DNA of 64,000 bases from Emticicia sp. 21SJ11W-3 (lineage in GTDB: Bacteria > Bacteroidota > Bacteroidia > Cytophagales > Spirosomataceae). How positions within the stretch are numbered: position 1 is the first letter of the stretch; every line of letters begins with the position of its first letter. The stretch is from the NCBI RefSeq assembly GCF_024138715.1, contig NZ_CP092074.1:3906001-3970000 (forward strand), in the 5' to 3' direction. The translations under genes and the position numbers were made by a program. Below the pieces are notes generated by a model that worked only from the letters and a program-made list of their open reading frames with translations, did not search any database and was not told where the DNA came from. Of the stretch, positions 8,314 to 34,346 are shown piece by piece.

Positions 8314-10785
8314 TTATTCTTTATAAAATACACGTTTTACGCGTTCGCTCACACCAGTCAGAATCTCATAGGGTATCGTTCCTATTGAGGCCGCCAGCTC
8401 ATGTATCGGCAGGTCTTTACCAAATATTATCACCTCGTCTCCCTCTTCACAACTGGCTTCTGTTACGTCTACCATGGTCATGTCCATACAAACATTACCA
8501 ATTACGGGGCATCGTGTGCCATTAACCAGTACATAGCCTACACCCTTACTGAAACCGCGGTCGAACCCATCGGCATAGCCAATGGCAATAGTAGCAATGC
8601 GGGAGTCTTTATCAAGTACACCTTTACGGCTATAACCAATGGTTTCTCCTTTTTTGAGGTGTTTAATCTGCGATATAATGGTTTTAAGTGTTCCAACGGT
8701 CTGCAAAGATTTTTGCTCGGTTCCGGTAGCTTCTACACCGTAAAGACCTATACCCAGGCGTACCATATCAAAACGGGCCTCCGGAAAACGGATAATACCC
8801 GCCGAATTGCAGATGTGTCGTAATGGTGGTGTTTCACCCGCAGGCAGGGCCTGTATTATTTTATCAGACATCCGTTGAAAGCGGTCTATCTGAGACTTTG
8901 AAAAATCATTATGTTCGGCTTCGTCGGCCCCCACCAGATGGCTGAATATAGATGCAATCTTAACAGAAGGATTCGATTTGAGCTGCTCAATCAGGGTATC
9001 GATATCCTGTTCCTCAAACCCAAGCCGATGCATTCCGGTGTCTAGTTTAATATGAATTCTGAATGTGGTATCAGGATATGAACGGGCAAAATCAATAAAC
9101 CGTCGGAAGATTGAAAAACTGTAAATCTCAGGCTCCAGATTATATTCTTTCAACTTACTGAAAGTTTCGGGCTGAGAATTAAGCACCATTACAGGCAGTT
9201 TTATGCCATTCTGCCGCAAAACCACTCCCTCGTCAGGATACGCCACCCCCAGGTAATCTACCCGGTGGTATTCAAGCAGGCTGGCTACTTCGGCGCTACC
9301 GCTTCCATAGGCATAGGCTTTTACCATTACCATTATTCTGGTGTTGTTTCCGGCTTTGCTTCGGTAAAAATTAAGATTATTGGTAAGGGCATCCAGATTA
9401 ATTTCAAATACTGTACCATGCACTTTTTGTATGAGCCTGTCAACGATTTTCTCAAATGCAAACTTTCTGGCACCTTTTACCAGAATAAGGCTGTCTTGCA
9501 GTTGGTTAATCGGGTATTGTTTCAGAAACGCTTCGGTTGACGGGTAGAAAACCCCGTCATCAAAAAAATGCTGGTTTCTTGAAATGTCTTCTCCTATACC
9601 CACCAGGTGGTCAATGCCTTTGCCTTTTACCAAATCGGCAATACTCTTATACAATTCGGTTTCTTTAAGGCCAGACTGCAGTAAATCGCTGATTATTAAC
9701 ACCTTGTTTCTTTTGGTGTGGTGTTGGCTCATAAAATTGAGCGCCATGTTCAGGCCTGCGTAGTCGTTATTATAGGTATCGTCTATCAGGTAGCAGTCAT
9801 TAATGCCCTGTTTCAGTTCCAGACGCATGGCTACCTGCTTCAGATTCATCAGGGCGTCGGCCATCACGCCTGAATCCTGCCCTTTGGGGGTCAGCAGCAG
9901 GCGCGCAAAAACACAATGGGTAGCATTTTCTATTGAGGCATCATCGGTAAACGGAATCCTGAATTCATATTCTTCGGCATTCCAGTTGATACACAGTGTT
10001 GTATAATGTGAGGCCTTGCTGTAAGTAACATTTATGGGGTTCTCCTGGCTCTTAGACCAGCCAATCAGCTGTATACCCGGATTAACCGCTTTCAGCAATA
10101 GTTTTATTTCTTCATCTATTTCTTCGTAGTCTTTACAATAGATAAGCGTTTGGCTCTTTTTAAACAAACGCAGCTTTTCGGTAACTTTTTGCTTGCGGCT
10201 TCTGAATCCCTCATCGTGTGCCGAGCCAATATTGGTAAAAATGCCAATGGTTGGGCTAATGATTGGCTCAAGGTTTTCCATTTCTCCTGATTTGGAAATC
10301 CCTGCTTCAAAAATCCCCAGTGTGTGGCTTTCATTCATTTGCCACACAGATAAACCAACGCCTATCTGCGAATTATAGCTTCGCGGACTTTTGATGATGG
10401 CGTAATCGCGGGCCAGCAGGTTACTCAGCCATTCTTTTACAATGGTTTTGCCATTACTGCCCGTAATGCCAATAACCGGAATGCTGAATTTCTTTCGGTG
10501 CGCGGCAGCAAGGTTTTGCAAAGCTTTTATGCCGTTTTCAACCATCCAGAATTTCCCGTCCGGAAAGCGGACAAGTAAATCAGCAGGCGCTGCTTTTTTT
10601 TCAACTACAAACTCCCGGACACCCTTCCGGTACAGTTCTTCAATAAAAGCGTGGCCGTCATGCCTTTCTCCTTTAATAGCAAAAAAAATACTTTGCTGTG
10701 GTTGAGAAACAAAACGGCTATCGGTAAGCAAAACAGTAGCCCCTGTCAATATGGGTTCAGAAAAGAAGTTCACGGGTATAAACAA
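8314..10785 (-). CDS. Bifunctional UDP-MurNAc-tripeptide:D-Ala-D-Ala ligase / alanine racemase
   Basis: Cytoplasmic peptidoglycan precursor enzyme joining two steps: PLP-dependent alanine racemase supplies D-Ala, and MurF adds D-Ala-D-Ala to the UDP-MurNAc peptide. Residues 1-455 are MurF with the ATP loop GITGSNGKT (106-114, Lys113) and the DDTYNND motif. Residues 456-823 are Alr, with the PLP lysine in MVKAYAYGSG (Lys489), IATIAIGYADGF and CMDMTMVDVT. The fusion is characteristic of Bacteroidota. The start is uncertain: TTG at 10785 follows the upstream lipoprotein's stop in the same frame, and GTG at 10773 (giving MNFFSEPILTG) is equally plausible. The 27-bp gap suggests co-transcription with the lipoprotein. 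Confidence 0.95.
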   Translation of the reverse strand: MFIPVNFFSEPILTGATVLLTDSRFVSQPQQSIFFAIKGERHDGHAFIEELYRKGVREFVVEKKAAPADLLVRFPDGKFWMVENGIKALQNLAAAHRKKFSIPVIGITGSNGKTIVKEWLSNLLARDYAIIKSPRSYNSQIGVGLSVWQMNESHTLGIFEAGISKSGEMENLEPIISPTIGIFTNIGSAHDEGFRSRKQKVTEKLRLFKKSQTLIYCKDYEEIDEEIKLLLKAVNPGIQLIGWSKSQENPINVTYSKASHYTTLCINWNAEEYEFRIPFTDDASIENATHCVFARLLLTPKGQDSGVMADALMNLKQVAMRLELKQGINDCYLIDDTYNNDYAGLNMALNFMSQHHTKRNKVLIISDLLQSGLKETELYKSIADLVKGKGIDHLVGIGEDISRNQHFFDDGVFYPSTEAFLKQYPINQLQDSLILVKGARKFAFEKIVDRLIQKVHGTVFEINLDALTNNLNFYRSKAGNNTRIMVMVKAYAYGSGSAEVASLLEYHRVDYLGVAYPDEGVVLRQNGIKLPVMVLNSQPETFSKLKEYNLEPEIYSFSIFRRFIDFARSYPDTTFRIHIKLDTGMHRLGFEEQDIDTLIEQLKSNPSVKIASIFSHLVGADEAEHNDFSKSQIDRFQRMSDKIIQALPAGETPPLRHICNSAGIIRFPEARFDMVRLGIGLYGVEATGTEQKSLQTVGTLKTIISQIKHLKKGETIGYSRKGVLDKDSRIATIAIGYADGFDRGFSKGVGYVLVNGTRCPVIGNVCMDMTMVDVTEASCEEGDEVIIFGKDLPIHELAASIGTIPYEILTGVSERVKRVFYKE

Positions 10786-10812
10786 AAAAAATGCTGAAGA
10801 AAAACAGATACT

Positions 10813-11250
10813 CTATAAAGACGGCACCAGTTCAAGATTAACCGTACTGTTAGAGGATATTAACTGATTATTAGTGGCTTGCAGTATCAGTTTGGTATTG
10901 GCAAGCTGTATTACTTTAAAATCGCCACCGAAACCGGTAATCTGAATCTCCATTATCGTATTATTGCTTTTAAGATACCAGGTGCCTGCATTTTTTATTT
11001 GCTTTGATACTCTGTCGCGTCCGCGGGTTACGTTGTCTTCCCGGAACTCAAATTCAAGATCAAAAATGGCCTGTGCCTGAGAATTCAGCTCGTTGTTACC
11101 CAAGGTTTTTCCGTTTACGTCGGTGTAACGGTCAAGTTTCCAGTAATTGGCCGACAGTATCTTTACCGAAGCAGTGGCAGGATTATTGCCGTCGCTTTTG
11201 CAGGCTACCGCAAAAACTGACAACATTAGTATAAAAAGTAGTTTTTTCAT
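10813..11250 (-). CDS. Small lipocalin-like lipoprotein
   Basis: 145 aa. The N-terminus is a lipoprotein signal (MKKLLFILMLSVFAVACKS; lipobox VAC with Cys17), so the mature protein of about 128 residues is membrane-anchored. The rest is beta-rich with alternating hydrophobics (YWKLDRYTDVNGK, FEFREDNVTRG, AGTWYLKSNNTIMEIQITG, LILQATNN), the pattern of the lipocalin-like domain proteins common in Bacteroidota. No enzymatic motif is visible. It sits just upstream of murF-alr and probably shares its mRNA, which says little about its job. A minus-strand -7 box lies 35-42 bp upstream. Confidence 0.75.
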   Translation of the reverse strand: MKKLLFILMLSVFAVACKSDGNNPATASVKILSANYWKLDRYTDVNGKTLGNNELNSQAQAIFDLEFEFREDNVTRGRDRVSKQIKNAGTWYLKSNNTIMEIQITGFGGDFKVIQLANTKLILQATNNQLISSNSTVNLELVPSL

Positions 11251-11284
11251 GTGAGTTTACCGTGAGGAAAATAAATTATGGCTG

Positions 11285-11987: not shown

Positions 11988-13475
11988 TTACATTTTCTCA
12001 ACTCTCACAACAATAGACCTGCTGAAATCGGGCAGAATTGTTGCATTGTTTTTTATTTCGCCTTTGGTCCATTGTTGTTTCCAGGGGTCATAAAACTCTA
12101 CTCTTACCACTCCGGATTCAAGTTTAAACTTCTGGCTTTTAACTACCCGCGGAGCCTTACCATTTACAAGCTCGGTCTGCCAGTTGTTTTCGCCATCTCT
12201 TATCCATACCAGGTCTTTGCCGGTACCCAGTAAACTATAAATCTTAAGTTGGTTTTCGCCATTGCTAAAGTAGGGTTTGGCATTTTCTTTTACGGGGTCA
12301 AATCCTTTTATGGCCTGGCTAAAACGGCCCAGATGATACCACAAGTTATTCTTGTCAACATAAAAATCCCAGTACCAGCTTTGCCCCGGAGCTGCCGAGC
12401 CCGAAAAGAACGGAGCAAAGAGTAAATCGTGGAACAAAATACCGTTTACGTCTTTATCAAACAATTTAGATGGCCCCGAATGGTTAGGCTCCACGGCACT
12501 TGTTTCGGCCAGAACAATTGGTTTATCAAGATTAAACGACCTTAAATCGTTAATGGCATCTGCAGCCAATTCATCCATTGGCCCTCTGCAAACCGCCAGT
12601 TCGGCCCCCAGGTCAAGGTACCGATGCACCTGAGCAATTGAATTATCCGGAATGGCCGAAAATGTTTTATAAATAGACCTTGCCCAAGAGGTACTCATGC
12701 TACCCATGCTTTGCATAACCAGATGGTTAGGTGCCAGTTTTTTAACACCCGGAAAAATCTCTTTCATCCAGGCCTCTACAGCCGGTGTAGGCACCCTGGT
12801 ATGCTCCATTTCGTTCCACAGTTCCCAACCAAATATTATGGGTTTGTTGGCATACCGGTTTAGCCAGAATGCTGCCCGGTTGAGATACACCGCTCTGCCT
12901 TCTTTGCTATTAATGTAGTCGGGCATATCTTTAAATTTGCCACCGTTTTTAACAGCATAAAAGGGTTTGTCGAATGCAAGCGAGTAAACAAAGGGCGCCG
13001 GATACCCGGTTAAATCTCTGAAATGCTCAAAGCAAAGTTTTAATCTTATCTGGTATTTTTCGGCCAATGCTATAAGTTTATCAACCCGCTGGGCAATAAC
13101 CGAATCGTAAACACCTATTTTTTTATTTTCAATTTCAAAAGCAGGCGCGCTAAGCCAGATTCTGGCAAAATTACCACCATACTTTGCTGTTTCCTGAAAA
13201 TAGTGTTCGTATCTCTGCAAGATAACTTCTTCTTTGTCTTCCTGCCTGATAAATGAAGTATTGATACCGATAGGTATAAAGGTATCGCCATTGGTAAGCT
13301 GTAGGTATGCCTTGTTCTGAGGGCTTATACGTACATAACTTTCTGCTGCGGGTTTTACAACAGTGGTGTCTACAGGCGGTTTGGTTGTGACTACTTCAGG
13401 AGCACAACTCATCACAGACATAGAAAAGAATAATAAAACGGACGTAATCATGCGTTTGGGACTTCTGTTCTTCAT
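11988..13475 (-). CDS. Lipoprotein glycoside hydrolase, GH5-like (cellulase/mannanase clan)
   Basis: 495 aa. A lipoprotein signal (FFSMSVMSCAPEV, Cys24) is followed by a Pro/Thr-rich linker and a TIM-barrel hydrolase. The acid/base is the Glu of GWELWNEME (Glu222) and the likely nucleophile is the Glu of IVLAETSAVE (Glu324), the two-glutamate layout of clan GH-A. The C-terminal ~90 residues look like a small beta domain. It probably acts on a beta-mannan or beta-glucan at the cell surface; the exact specificity is not readable. No SusC/SusD pair is nearby, so it is not in a classical polysaccharide utilisation locus. Confidence 0.8.
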   Translation of the reverse strand: MKNRSPKRMITSVLLFFSMSVMSCAPEVVTTKPPVDTTVVKPAAESYVRISPQNKAYLQLTNGDTFIPIGINTSFIRQEDKEEVILQRYEHYFQETAKYGGNFARIWLSAPAFEIENKKIGVYDSVIAQRVDKLIALAEKYQIRLKLCFEHFRDLTGYPAPFVYSLAFDKPFYAVKNGGKFKDMPDYINSKEGRAVYLNRAAFWLNRYANKPIIFGWELWNEMEHTRVPTPAVEAWMKEIFPGVKKLAPNHLVMQSMGSMSTSWARSIYKTFSAIPDNSIAQVHRYLDLGAELAVCRGPMDELAADAINDLRSFNLDKPIVLAETSAVEPNHSGPSKLFDKDVNGILFHDLLFAPFFSGSAAPGQSWYWDFYVDKNNLWYHLGRFSQAIKGFDPVKENAKPYFSNGENQLKIYSLLGTGKDLVWIRDGENNWQTELVNGKAPRVVKSQKFKLESGVVRVEFYDPWKQQWTKGEIKNNATILPDFSRSIVVRVEKM

Positions 13476-32594: not shown

Positions 32595-32726
32595 ATGGAA
32601 AAACAGAATAAATTTAAGCTCTGGTTTAAACGCCTGGGTTGGGCAGGTTTTTTTTTCTTTCTTATTAAAGGCTTGTTATGGCTAATCATACCTTACCTGA
32701 TTACCAAGGGAATTTTGAGCAAATAA
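32595..32726 (+). CDS. Small 43-aa membrane protein
   Basis: MEKQNKFKLWFKRLGWAG followed by a hydrophobic helix (FFFFLIKGLLWLIIPYLI) and a short tail. ATG at 32595 is 4 bp after the CPBP stop. Near-identical short proteins occur in many Bacteroidota genomes, sometimes mislabelled as alanyl-tRNA synthetase fragments; the KxKLWxKRLGWxGFxFFLIKGLLWL core is what I recognise. Function unknown. Probably an in-operon partner of the CPBP protein. Confidence 0.7.
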   Translation: MEKQNKFKLWFKRLGWAGFFFFLIKGLLWLIIPYLITKGILSK

Positions 32727-32743
32727 TTGAATCTTTTCATTGA

Positions 32744-32751
32744 TAAGTTTG
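32744..32751 (+). promoter_or_regulatory. -7 element upstream of the HPr-kinase-like gene
   Basis: TAAGTTTG, an exact TAnnTTTG match, predicts transcription starting near 32757 and a leader of about 100 nt before ATG 32864. TTTG or TTG sequences upstream are off the ideal spacing. Confidence 0.45.
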
Positions 32752-32863
32752 CACCTGTAAACCCAATTTAAGGACATTTTTTAACTTTTAAAGCCGGACC
32801 TTCTGATGTCAGATTGCGTTTATGAGCCTTGGGGCGGTCCGGAATCAAATACCTGAACACCTG

Positions 32864-33772
32864 ATGAATTATTATTTTGCTTATGGTCTTTCTCTAGTAA
32901 CTGATATTGTTTTTCCTGAACTTCATATAATTGCCCCAACTGAAAACCCGGATATAAGCGTAGTTATCGGAACAATCCCCTCAGCATATACAGACACGAA
33001 AAAAGACAGTGAATCAACCATTAGTTTTGATTCAGACAACTATTTTCTCAATATTATAAACGTGGGTGGCTATTATGTTACTTCTGGCAACCACGTGATT
33101 ATTGAACCCGCCGCCAATGCCGATATGAAAGAAGTGCGGCTGTTTTTTTTGTCAAATGCAATGGCGGCCATTTTGTATCAACGCCAGATGATACCTATGC
33201 ACGCTTCTGCCATTTATGATAACGAAGGCATAGTATTGTTTCTGGGAGACTCCGGAGCGGGGAAGTCAACCACGGTAGCTTCGCTTCAGGCAAAAGGCTA
33301 CAGAATATTTTCTGACGATGTATGCGTACCAGTGCCAACTCCTGACGGCATAAGCGCCTATGCTGCCTACCCGATGATGAAACTCTGGAAAGACAGCTTT
33401 GACCGGGCCAATATTGGTGATTATGAGGAAGAACTCAGGATAAGACCAACCATGGATAAATACGGCAAATTGTTTAACGAATCATTTGATACCAGGCCGA
33501 TGAGAATCAAGCGGATTTTTGTTCTGGAAAAAGAAGATACCGGCCATCTGGAAACCAGGCAGGTTATGGGTATTCAGGCATTTAAATATCTGCAAAATTA
33601 TGCCTACCGGCTTCAGTACATTGAAGGCATGGGGGTATTAAAAGACTATTTTCAGGTAATTAGTTTGCTTTCAAATCAGATACCTACAACCGTAATAACT
33701 CGCCCGAACGAAGTTGACACACTGGATACCATACTTGCATATATTGAAAACCTGCTTGAAGAAAAACATTAA
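32864..33772 (+). CDS. HPr-kinase-like P-loop protein
   Basis: 302 aa. The C-terminal half is an HprK-type kinase domain: P-loop FLGDSGAGKSTT (Lys134), then FSDDVCVP with the Asp pair that follows the P-loop in HprK. The N-terminal half (YYFAYGLSLVTDIVFPEL) is typical of the stand-alone HprK-related proteins found near RiPP precursors rather than of HPr kinase itself, which has a different N-terminal domain. In paeninodin-type lasso clusters such a protein phosphorylates the precursor. Here the next gene, 127 bp on, encodes a 47-aa precursor-like peptide. ATG 32864 fits the family start; ATG 32822 adds 14 residues. Confidence 0.82.
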   Translation: MNYYFAYGLSLVTDIVFPELHIIAPTENPDISVVIGTIPSAYTDTKKDSESTISFDSDNYFLNIINVGGYYVTSGNHVIIEPAANADMKEVRLFFLSNAMAAILYQRQMIPMHASAIYDNEGIVLFLGDSGAGKSTTVASLQAKGYRIFSDDVCVPVPTPDGISAYAAYPMMKLWKDSFDRANIGDYEEELRIRPTMDKYGKLFNESFDTRPMRIKRIFVLEKEDTGHLETRQVMGIQAFKYLQNYAYRLQYIEGMGVLKDYFQVISLLSNQIPTTVITRPNEVDTLDTILAYIENLLEEKH

Positions 33773-33843
33773 AGCCTGACAATAAAATGATTAACGTGTT
33801 GTGATAGATGCTTAAATTAATTATAATACTTTTATATACCGTA

Positions 33844-33876
33844 TTTGTAACTCATTTTAAGACCCGGATACTTTTT
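33844..33876 (+). promoter_or_regulatory. Probable promoter of the 47-aa peptide
   Basis: TTTG (33844-33847), 21 nt, then TACTTTTT (33869-33876): a full -33 and a 7-of-8 -7 element at ideal spacing. It predicts a start near 33882 and a leader of about 18 nt, so the peptide can be made in excess of the kinase. Confidence 0.6.
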
Positions 33877-33899
33877 TTTAAAATTAACATTTCACCCCT

Positions 33900-34043
33900 A
33901 TGGCACCCTATTCAGTAAGCACCAGGAAAGTAAAAAAAAGCTGGCAAACGCCTTCTTTTGAAAAAATTGAGCTACAGACCAAGTCAGGTATCAAATCATT
34001 GGCAGGTCTGAAATTGCTAGACCCCGATGCCATCAATTATTAA
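33900..34043 (+). CDS. 47-aa RiPP-precursor-like peptide
   Basis: Too short for routine gene finders. Reads MAPYSVSTRKVKKSWQTPSF, then EKIELQTKSG, then IKSLAGLKLLDPDAINY and stop. W15-x-x-P18-x-F20 matches the Y-x-x-P-x-L leader motif that PqqD-like proteins recognise in lasso precursors, the KK before it and the I/L pattern after it also fit, and Thr27 is where a leader would end. The C-terminal 18-19 residues would be the core. No Asp/Glu lies at ring position 7-9 of a core starting at Ser29; a core starting at Gly36 would put Asp43 at position 8. Codon use is ordinary. Confidence 0.6.
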   Translation: MAPYSVSTRKVKKSWQTPSFEKIELQTKSGIKSLAGLKLLDPDAINY

Positions 34044-34346
34044 AAACCGGCAGGTGGTTTACGTTTCTCTTAATATCGGGGGCTGGGTTCTGCCCCCCGG
34101 CACAAACCTGATCATCCATAGGTTAGCTTTCAATAAGCCCGTTTGTTAATTCTGCCTTAGACCTGCAACTCCTTAGCCCTGCCCTCTGTGGGCAGTCATT
34201 TTCTGGCTAATCCAACTATCCTTAAATTTTACCGTTAGTTGATATTTTCAGACGTATCAGCCTATTTCATTTTTTTAATACTTGAAAGAAATCTATTTTC
34301 GTTTGTCAGAATCCACCTGCGCACTCAATCACTCAAACAAAGATTT
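34044..34346. other. Intergenic region after the peptide, with hairpins
   Basis: About 300 bp without a supported gene. It holds a GC-rich hairpin (CGGGGGC 34077-34083 with GCCCCCCG 34092-34099), a second stem CTGCCC/GGGCAG (34179-34184 with 34190-34195) followed by TCATTTTC that may terminate the peptide mRNA, and a short octamer-like stretch CACTCAATCACTCAAA (34322-34337) just before the permease ATG. Confidence 0.45.

Follow-up and report, generated by a model that had tools for sequence, protein, structure and literature searches.

A kinase-peptide gene pair in Emticicia as a probable reduced version of a lasso-related RiPP cluster without a cyclase

The window analysed here, 64,000 nucleotides of the Emticicia sp. 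21SJ11W-3 genome (a single contig of 5.18 Mb), encodes an HprK-like peptide kinase followed by a short precursor-like peptide, both carried on an accessory island. The features are listed with their supporting evidence:

32864..33772, plus strand: HprK-like peptide kinase gene, 302 aa (ORF translation, orthologs, alignment, structural model).
33900..34043, plus strand: precursor-like peptide gene, 47 aa, with a W-x-x-P leader and a C-terminal part ending LLDPDAINY (homologs adjoin the kinase ortholog in the congeners C21 and BO119).
33844..33876, plus strand: possible Bacteroidota-type promoter, weak, TTTG-N21-TAcTTTTT (one mismatch to the consensus).
34178..34195, plus strand: weak terminator-like stem 3′ of the peptide (the region has five such sites; shuffles average 1.5, sd 1.2).
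32728..34210, no strand: accessory island containing the pair (the same site in the congener G008 is without it).

The kinase ORF, which stops at 33772, could also be read from a longer in-frame ATG at 32822, but the C21 and BO119 orthologs begin at the position matching the ATG at 32864. An earlier reading of the letters alone (hereafter the sequence-only reading) had described an HprK-type P-loop protein followed 127 bp later, on the same strand, by a 47-codon ORF. We find both GDSGAGKSTT and DD in the kinase, a gap of exactly that length (33773-33899) and the ORF at 33900-34043, as well as the leader features it listed, namely W15-Q-T-P18-S-F20, a lysine-rich prefix (K10, K12 and K13 ahead of W15) and Thr27. 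It was also correct that the window holds no PqqD, lasso peptidase or Asn-synthetase-like cyclase: HMMs built for kinase, RRE, B2, cyclase, NTase and sulfotransferase matched the kinase alone. The near-consensus promoter assigned to the peptide fared less well. A TTGTGA-17-TATAAT box (10/12) does lie at 33799-33827, but we give it little weight because the scanned 1.8 kb has eight sites of this class where shuffles average 5.0 (sd 2.1), and because Bacteroidota promoters follow a different consensus. The Bacteroidota-type match at 33844-33876 was equalled in 15 of 200 shuffles.

The pair is preceded by a gene for a CPBP protease and a hydrophobic ORF of 43 aa, and followed by a MacB/FtsX permease gene. 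All 11 genomes of the genus have dus, CPBP, the small hydrophobic ORF and the permease in that order, and the variable segment falls between the last two genes: an island in three genomes (window, C21 and BO119), only 243 bp in G008, which represents an empty site, and about 2 kb in the remaining seven. Where this 2-kb segment was read (4/7 genomes), it is a single ORF of 593-596 aa, gamma-glutamyltransferase-like by eye. The window aligns with the G008 empty site at 32595-32727 and again from 34211. The tiny hydrophobic ORF itself (..GWAGFFFFL.KGL..; window 32595-32726), which adjoins the CPBP gene in 11/11 genus genomes and gave no Pfam match over cut-off, has similar counterparts immediately 5′ of an RRE gene in two other genera (L080:3007-3144; L081:8947-9096).

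The island of C21 (locus L055) holds a fuller gene set at this site:

9570-10499: kinase, same-site ortholog of the window kinase.
10509-10958, minus strand: B2 peptidase (lasso_biosyn_B2, 70.1 bits, cut-off 33).
10972-11277, minus strand: RRE (PqqD, 56.3, cut-off 23.4; best NCBIfam model lasso_PqqD_Bac, 68.1, cut-off 80).
Between 11460 and 11992: three precursor peptides.
12118-13284: NTase (NTP_transf_5, 129.8, cut-off 31.2).

B2, RRE and NTase are the only ORFs of at least 85 aa listed between the C21 kinase and the permease, and the cyclase HMM found nothing in the 20 kb of this locus or in the 20 kb of the BO119 locus (L056). BO119 encodes the kinase, an RRE and two peptides; its NTase frame is broken by one in-frame stop, and of B2 there is a trace at most (22 residues, E 0.013, in the correct place and on the correct strand). 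That trace is suggestive at best, because the same search, applied to the window site for remnants of RRE, B2 and NTase, gave as its best match E 0.022 inside an unrelated flanking gene, hence no trace of them there. The kinase and the peptides are the parts intact in all three islands. A further congener, G007 (L057; 18 kb without a cyclase HMM match), has kinase, RRE, B2, NTase and two peptides at another chromosomal place, with a kinase of a different clade.

With the window peptide alone as query, 3 of 58 genomes gave matches, its own counted: three ORFs in C21 (E 4.8e-6, 7.5e-5 and 1.8e-4) and one in BO119 (E 0.004), where a second peptide was recognised by eye and by profile. Every C21 and BO119 match lies near the orthologous kinase at the same chromosomal site, and each of these genomes has one kinase match at an E threshold of 1e-10 (57% and 56% identity here, 55-57% overall). 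The sequence-only reading was to be abandoned if relatives did not keep the peptide beside the kinase; C21 and BO119 do keep it, and the kinase-peptide pair is real and conserved, above chance. Profile searches place the peptide family in 5/11 genus genomes, four of which supplied profile members, and the scores of profiles A4 and A5 for peptides that they themselves include are not independent. Across 395 genomes of the phylum the profile matched, apart from the own genome, just one other, and there the leader alone (7.4e-4); a plasmid collection gave no match. The six peptides of the window, C21 and BO119 share an L-D-P motif in which the Asp of D-P stands 26 residues after the Trp in every case. 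The relatives lend no backing to Thr27 as the lasso T(-2) residue: that position is Ser in all five C21 and BO119 peptides.

The window kinase has the expected catalytic set (His113, Lys134, Ser135, Asp151 and Asp152), and these residues are invariant in 13/13 aligned kinases, a set made up of the window kinase and selected loci and not including the own-genome paralog L008, in which Lys replaces the catalytic His. According to PMC9266682, lasso-peptide kinases require the His-Lys-Asp-Asp set, and PMC10368454 describes the equivalent residues of BsfK as important or essential. Four paralogs in the same genome (31-40% identity to the window kinase) all adjoin Asn-synthetase-like cyclase genes in lasso-like clusters, with an RRE in three of the four, a full-length B2 in one and a sulfotransferase, by our own HMM, in two; in one more of these clusters Sulfotransfer_3 scores weakly, 21.5 bits, under its cut-off of 27. 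The proposed kinship with lasso-peptide kinases is thus borne out by the catalytic set, the HMM match and the setting of the paralogs. An AlphaFold2 model of the kinase (pLDDT 84.3) has PEPCK and HprK/P as its best PDB matches, with modest TM-scores (≤0.53 by query length).

Since the C21 site holds kinase, RRE, B2, NTase and three precursors without a cyclase, the window pair is better read, on comparative grounds, as a reduced form of such a cluster than as the minimal kinase-peptide pair first proposed. We put the probability that the pair derives in this way from a cyclase-free, lasso-related RiPP cluster, with a linear phosphopeptide as its predicted product, at about 0.6. Against this explanation stand the lack of a C-terminal Ser in the window peptide, the local absence of RRE, B2 and NTase and the fast divergence of the kinase.

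The same observations feed the main rival, a decaying relic in which the cluster is being lost from the lineage and both frames are still open but yield no product. RRE, B2 and NTase are gone from the window, the BO119 locus has its interrupted NTase and at most a trace of B2, G008 has the empty site, and the C-terminal Ser has been lost from the window peptide. The kinase branch measures 0.55 in the tree against 0.18 and 0.22 for its orthologs, and kinase dN is 0.365 between window and C21 but 0.190 between C21 and BO119, whereas the corresponding values for the CPBP gene alongside are 0.136 and 0.120, with dS saturated or almost so in these comparisons. Such divergence fits relaxed selection or an altered role once partners were lost. 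However, the 302-codon and 47-codon frames are both intact although dS in the lineage is at or near saturation, kinase pN is far under pS, all catalytic residues are retained, and the L-D-P motif keeps its distance from Trp in 6/6 peptides. We regard a relic as unlikely, while taking it seriously.

A separate question is whether the peptide is a lasso precursor, as its leader had suggested. A leader of RRE-recognised type is supported: a whole-genome search of the kind the sequence-only reading had called for found 18 ORFs in the own genome matching the leader profile (E ≤0.008; 11 of these went into the profile), so that 17 further ORFs have a leader like that of the window peptide. Seventeen of the 18 end in Ser, the window peptide (Tyr end) being the sole exception, and C-terminal Ser occurs in 6/8 peptides from cyclase-free loci (one from the window, three from C21, two each from BO119 and G007). 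Under a strict ring rule (a Gly, Ala, Ser or Cys placed 12-16 residues C-terminal to the leader Trp, then Asp or Glu at ring position 7, 8 or 9), a ring acceptor is present in 11/13 cyclase-linked precursors of the genus and in none of the eight cyclase-free-locus peptides; with any first residue allowed, the counts become 12/13 and 1/8. These counts leave out two ORFs at L126 and tally apart a five-peptide array, 6.3-7.6 kb from a cyclase gene, in which 2/5 (strict) or 3/5 (any first residue) are ring-compatible. At the usual spacing, ring positions 7-9 of the window peptide offer no Asp or Glu, whatever the first core residue. On this acceptor spacing and the cyclase-free C21 locus we rejected the reading of the window peptide as a lasso precursor.

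A version of that idea would have the peptide matured in trans by the cyclase, RRE and B2 of other clusters, with the window kinase as a tailoring enzyme. The earlier suspicion that enzymes reside elsewhere in the genome was well founded, as we found six cyclase-like genes, four RREs (L006, L007, L009 and an orphan at 1.194 Mb) and one intact B2 over cut-off (0.919 Mb); the leader motif is common to the window peptide and other precursors, and two lasso-like precursors at 0.70 Mb are likewise apart from core enzymes. The missing ring acceptor and the absence of a cyclase from the 20-kb C21 cluster both speak against maturation to a lasso, which we consider improbable.

The inventory also contains a fifth RRE match (E 0.03) within a 634-codon frame, a second B2 below cut-off and with an internal TAG (C1:3615656-3615832, in the L006 lasso-like cluster), and one NTase, 29% identical to that of C21. 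The orphan RRE (L030:8276-8635; C1 about 1194.3 kb), near which no other RiPP gene was detected, is the own-genome RRE closest to the C21 RRE (46% across 87 aa, compared with 33, 37 and 23% for the other three) and groups with the C21 and BO119 RREs at 85/83, support that falls short of the starred level, and with a long branch. By sequence it is a candidate partner of the window pair. Because there is one intact B2 for so many precursors, the protease would be shared, or another would serve, if several of them are made. A search of the genome with the window peptide gave seven weak matches, four of which (E 0.02-0.13) fall within the five-ORF array at 3.209-3.210 Mb.

Several of these loci have features of their own. 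The array (L028:12018-13338; C1:3209017-3210337) comprises five tandem precursor-like ORFs with W-x-x-P leaders, two of them ending LDPTG; farther 3′ lie three 350-aa ORFs with identical printed sequence, transposase-like by eye. At L126:7488-8676 (C1:700487-701675), two lasso-like precursor ORFs adjoin two sulfotransferase-like ORFs, and our kinase, RRE, B2 and cyclase HMMs found no match in the 16 kb of that locus. The lasso-like cluster at L006:7300-9287 has a JmjC-domain gene (84.4 bits, cut-off 22) adjoining the kinase, and six alike tandem ORFs of 173-176 aa, phage-tail-collar-like by eye, lie 3′ of another such cluster (L009:11641-15455).

That the kinase is instead a metabolic HPr-kinase-like protein adjoining an unrelated small ORF is scarcely credible: P-loop similarity and the fold match to HprK/P and PEPCK would suit it, but the four paralogs in lasso-like clusters do not, true HPr kinase/phosphorylase identity was rejected, though the fold is related, on scores below the cut-offs of Hpr_kinase_C (PF07475; 17.7 against 33.3) and hpr-ser (TIGR00679; 20.2 against 240), and same-site conservation of the peptide next to the kinase largely refutes it. 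The HPr-rel-A system (TIGR04352/TIGR04353) pairs an HprK-related kinase with a PqqD-like partner; it too was rejected, the window kinase scoring 30.9 bits against 200 and the C21 RRE 18.9 against 35.

In the kinase tree, from which the duplicate loci L060 (=BO119) and L069 (=C21) were excluded, it takes 7 changes to place the 18 cyclase-free and the 17 cyclase-linked rows (shuffle mean 11.9), and a neat division of kinases by cyclase presence was accordingly rejected; 'cyclase-free' here means no cyclase within the stretch examined, and several contigs are short. A distant kinase clade from other genera of the family (L079-L083, L085, L087 and L089) occurs with RRE and NTase at 7/8 loci and with RRE and B2 at L085; the stretches examined gave no cyclase match, and no W-x-x-P peptide was evident among the small ORFs listed.

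Among described systems the nearest kind is that of the linear polyphosphorylated peptides, LPP (Paenibacillus alginolyticus lpp), reported in 2026, a cyclase-free kinase/RRE/NTase family of Bacillota with a demonstrated phosphorylated linear product; in PMC13381572 its authors restrict LPPs to Bacillota, and the word 'bacteroid' is absent from the main text. As presented there, LPP resembles the C21 locus in its HprK-like kinase, discrete RRE and NTP transferase and in having no macrolactam cyclase, and resembles the window, C21 and BO119 in having one to three precursors with an aromatic-x-x-P leader; as in the genome of the window strain, lasso clusters occur alongside. This kinase, RRE and NTP transferase set is complete in C21, interrupted at the NTase in BO119 and represented by the kinase alone in the window. 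The LPP peptidase is an archaeal-type signal peptidase (SpI), whereas C21 has a lasso B2; the LPP leader reads Y-x-x-P-x-V-L-x-H-Q-x-I-x-F-E-T-x-x-S, whereas those of the window, C21 and BO119 have W-x-x-P without H-Q or F-E-T. The same description gives LPP an MsbA-like exporter, which is missing among the ORFs listed in the islands (the MacB/FtsX gene beside them is present in 11/11 genus genomes, island or not), and highly variable C termini, in contrast to the short conserved L-D-P(-H) end of the window, C21 and BO119 peptides. LPP is placed in Bacillota and the window pair, without RRE, peptidase or NTase, in Bacteroidota. Judged by predicted gene content, the C21 set is the LPP set save for peptidase and exporter. 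We infer by analogy that the cluster is neither an LPP member, as peptidase, leader motif and exporter differ, nor a lasso peptide, but would work like LPP.

Paeninodin-type systems (PadeK/ThcoK/PsmK-PsmN; PMC9266682 and PMC8498205) share the His-Lys-Asp-Asp kinase kind and the W-x-x-P leader with the window pair, and B2, RRE and NTase with C21; W15-x-x-P18-x-F20 fits the paeninodin-like [Y/W]xxPx[L/V/I/A/F] pattern. The window locus differs from them in lacking a cyclase, a ring acceptor and the C-terminal Ser that serves as phosphate acceptor in these types (PMC9266682). Bsf of Bradymonas sediminis is alike in having RRE, B2 and NTase beside an HprK-like kinase (BsfK) whose essential residues are equivalent, and in its phosphorylation at an internal serine (core Ser3), but has a lasso cyclase, which the window and C21 loci do not (PMC10368454). 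A search of the open-licence literature, with most subscription papers outside its scope, listed no paper on Emticicia lasso or cyclase-free clusters.

Returning to the reduced cyclase-free cluster, its proposed mechanism would run as follows. A PqqD-like RRE encoded elsewhere, for which the 1.194 Mb orphan is the best candidate, would bind the W-x-x-P leader, and the HprK-like kinase would transfer phosphate from ATP to a Ser in the C-terminal part of the peptide. Because the window peptide is without a C-terminal Ser, the acceptor, if it is phosphorylated at all, would be Ser29 or Ser33. Phosphorylation of the window peptide is suggested by analogy; LPP is phosphorylated at core Ser3, where LppK refuses Thr or Tyr (PMC13381572). 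The single intact B2 protease at 0.919 Mb would then cut off the leader to give a linear phosphopeptide with no ring; where the cluster is complete, decoration of the phosphate would fall to the NTase. The related five-peptide array may be a further substrate of the window kinase, in trans.

More tentatively, and as something we would not yet lean on, these loci could form a Bacteroidota counterpart of LPP of independent origin, making linear phosphopeptides with an L-D-P(-H) end that are cleaved by a lasso B2, its scattered genes (the pair, the orphan RRE, the five-peptide array and a shared protease) acting in trans beside six cyclase-like genes on up to 18 leader-bearing precursors. If true, a differently built cyclase-free version in a second phylum, with a lasso B2, would suggest that the ring enzyme was omitted more than once, and that genome mining anchored on cyclases misses such clusters. 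Since this genome combines a single intact B2 with 18 leader-bearing ORFs, sharing in trans is directly testable in it, and C21, BO119 and the window offer a natural series on which parts of the pathway can be lost or borrowed.
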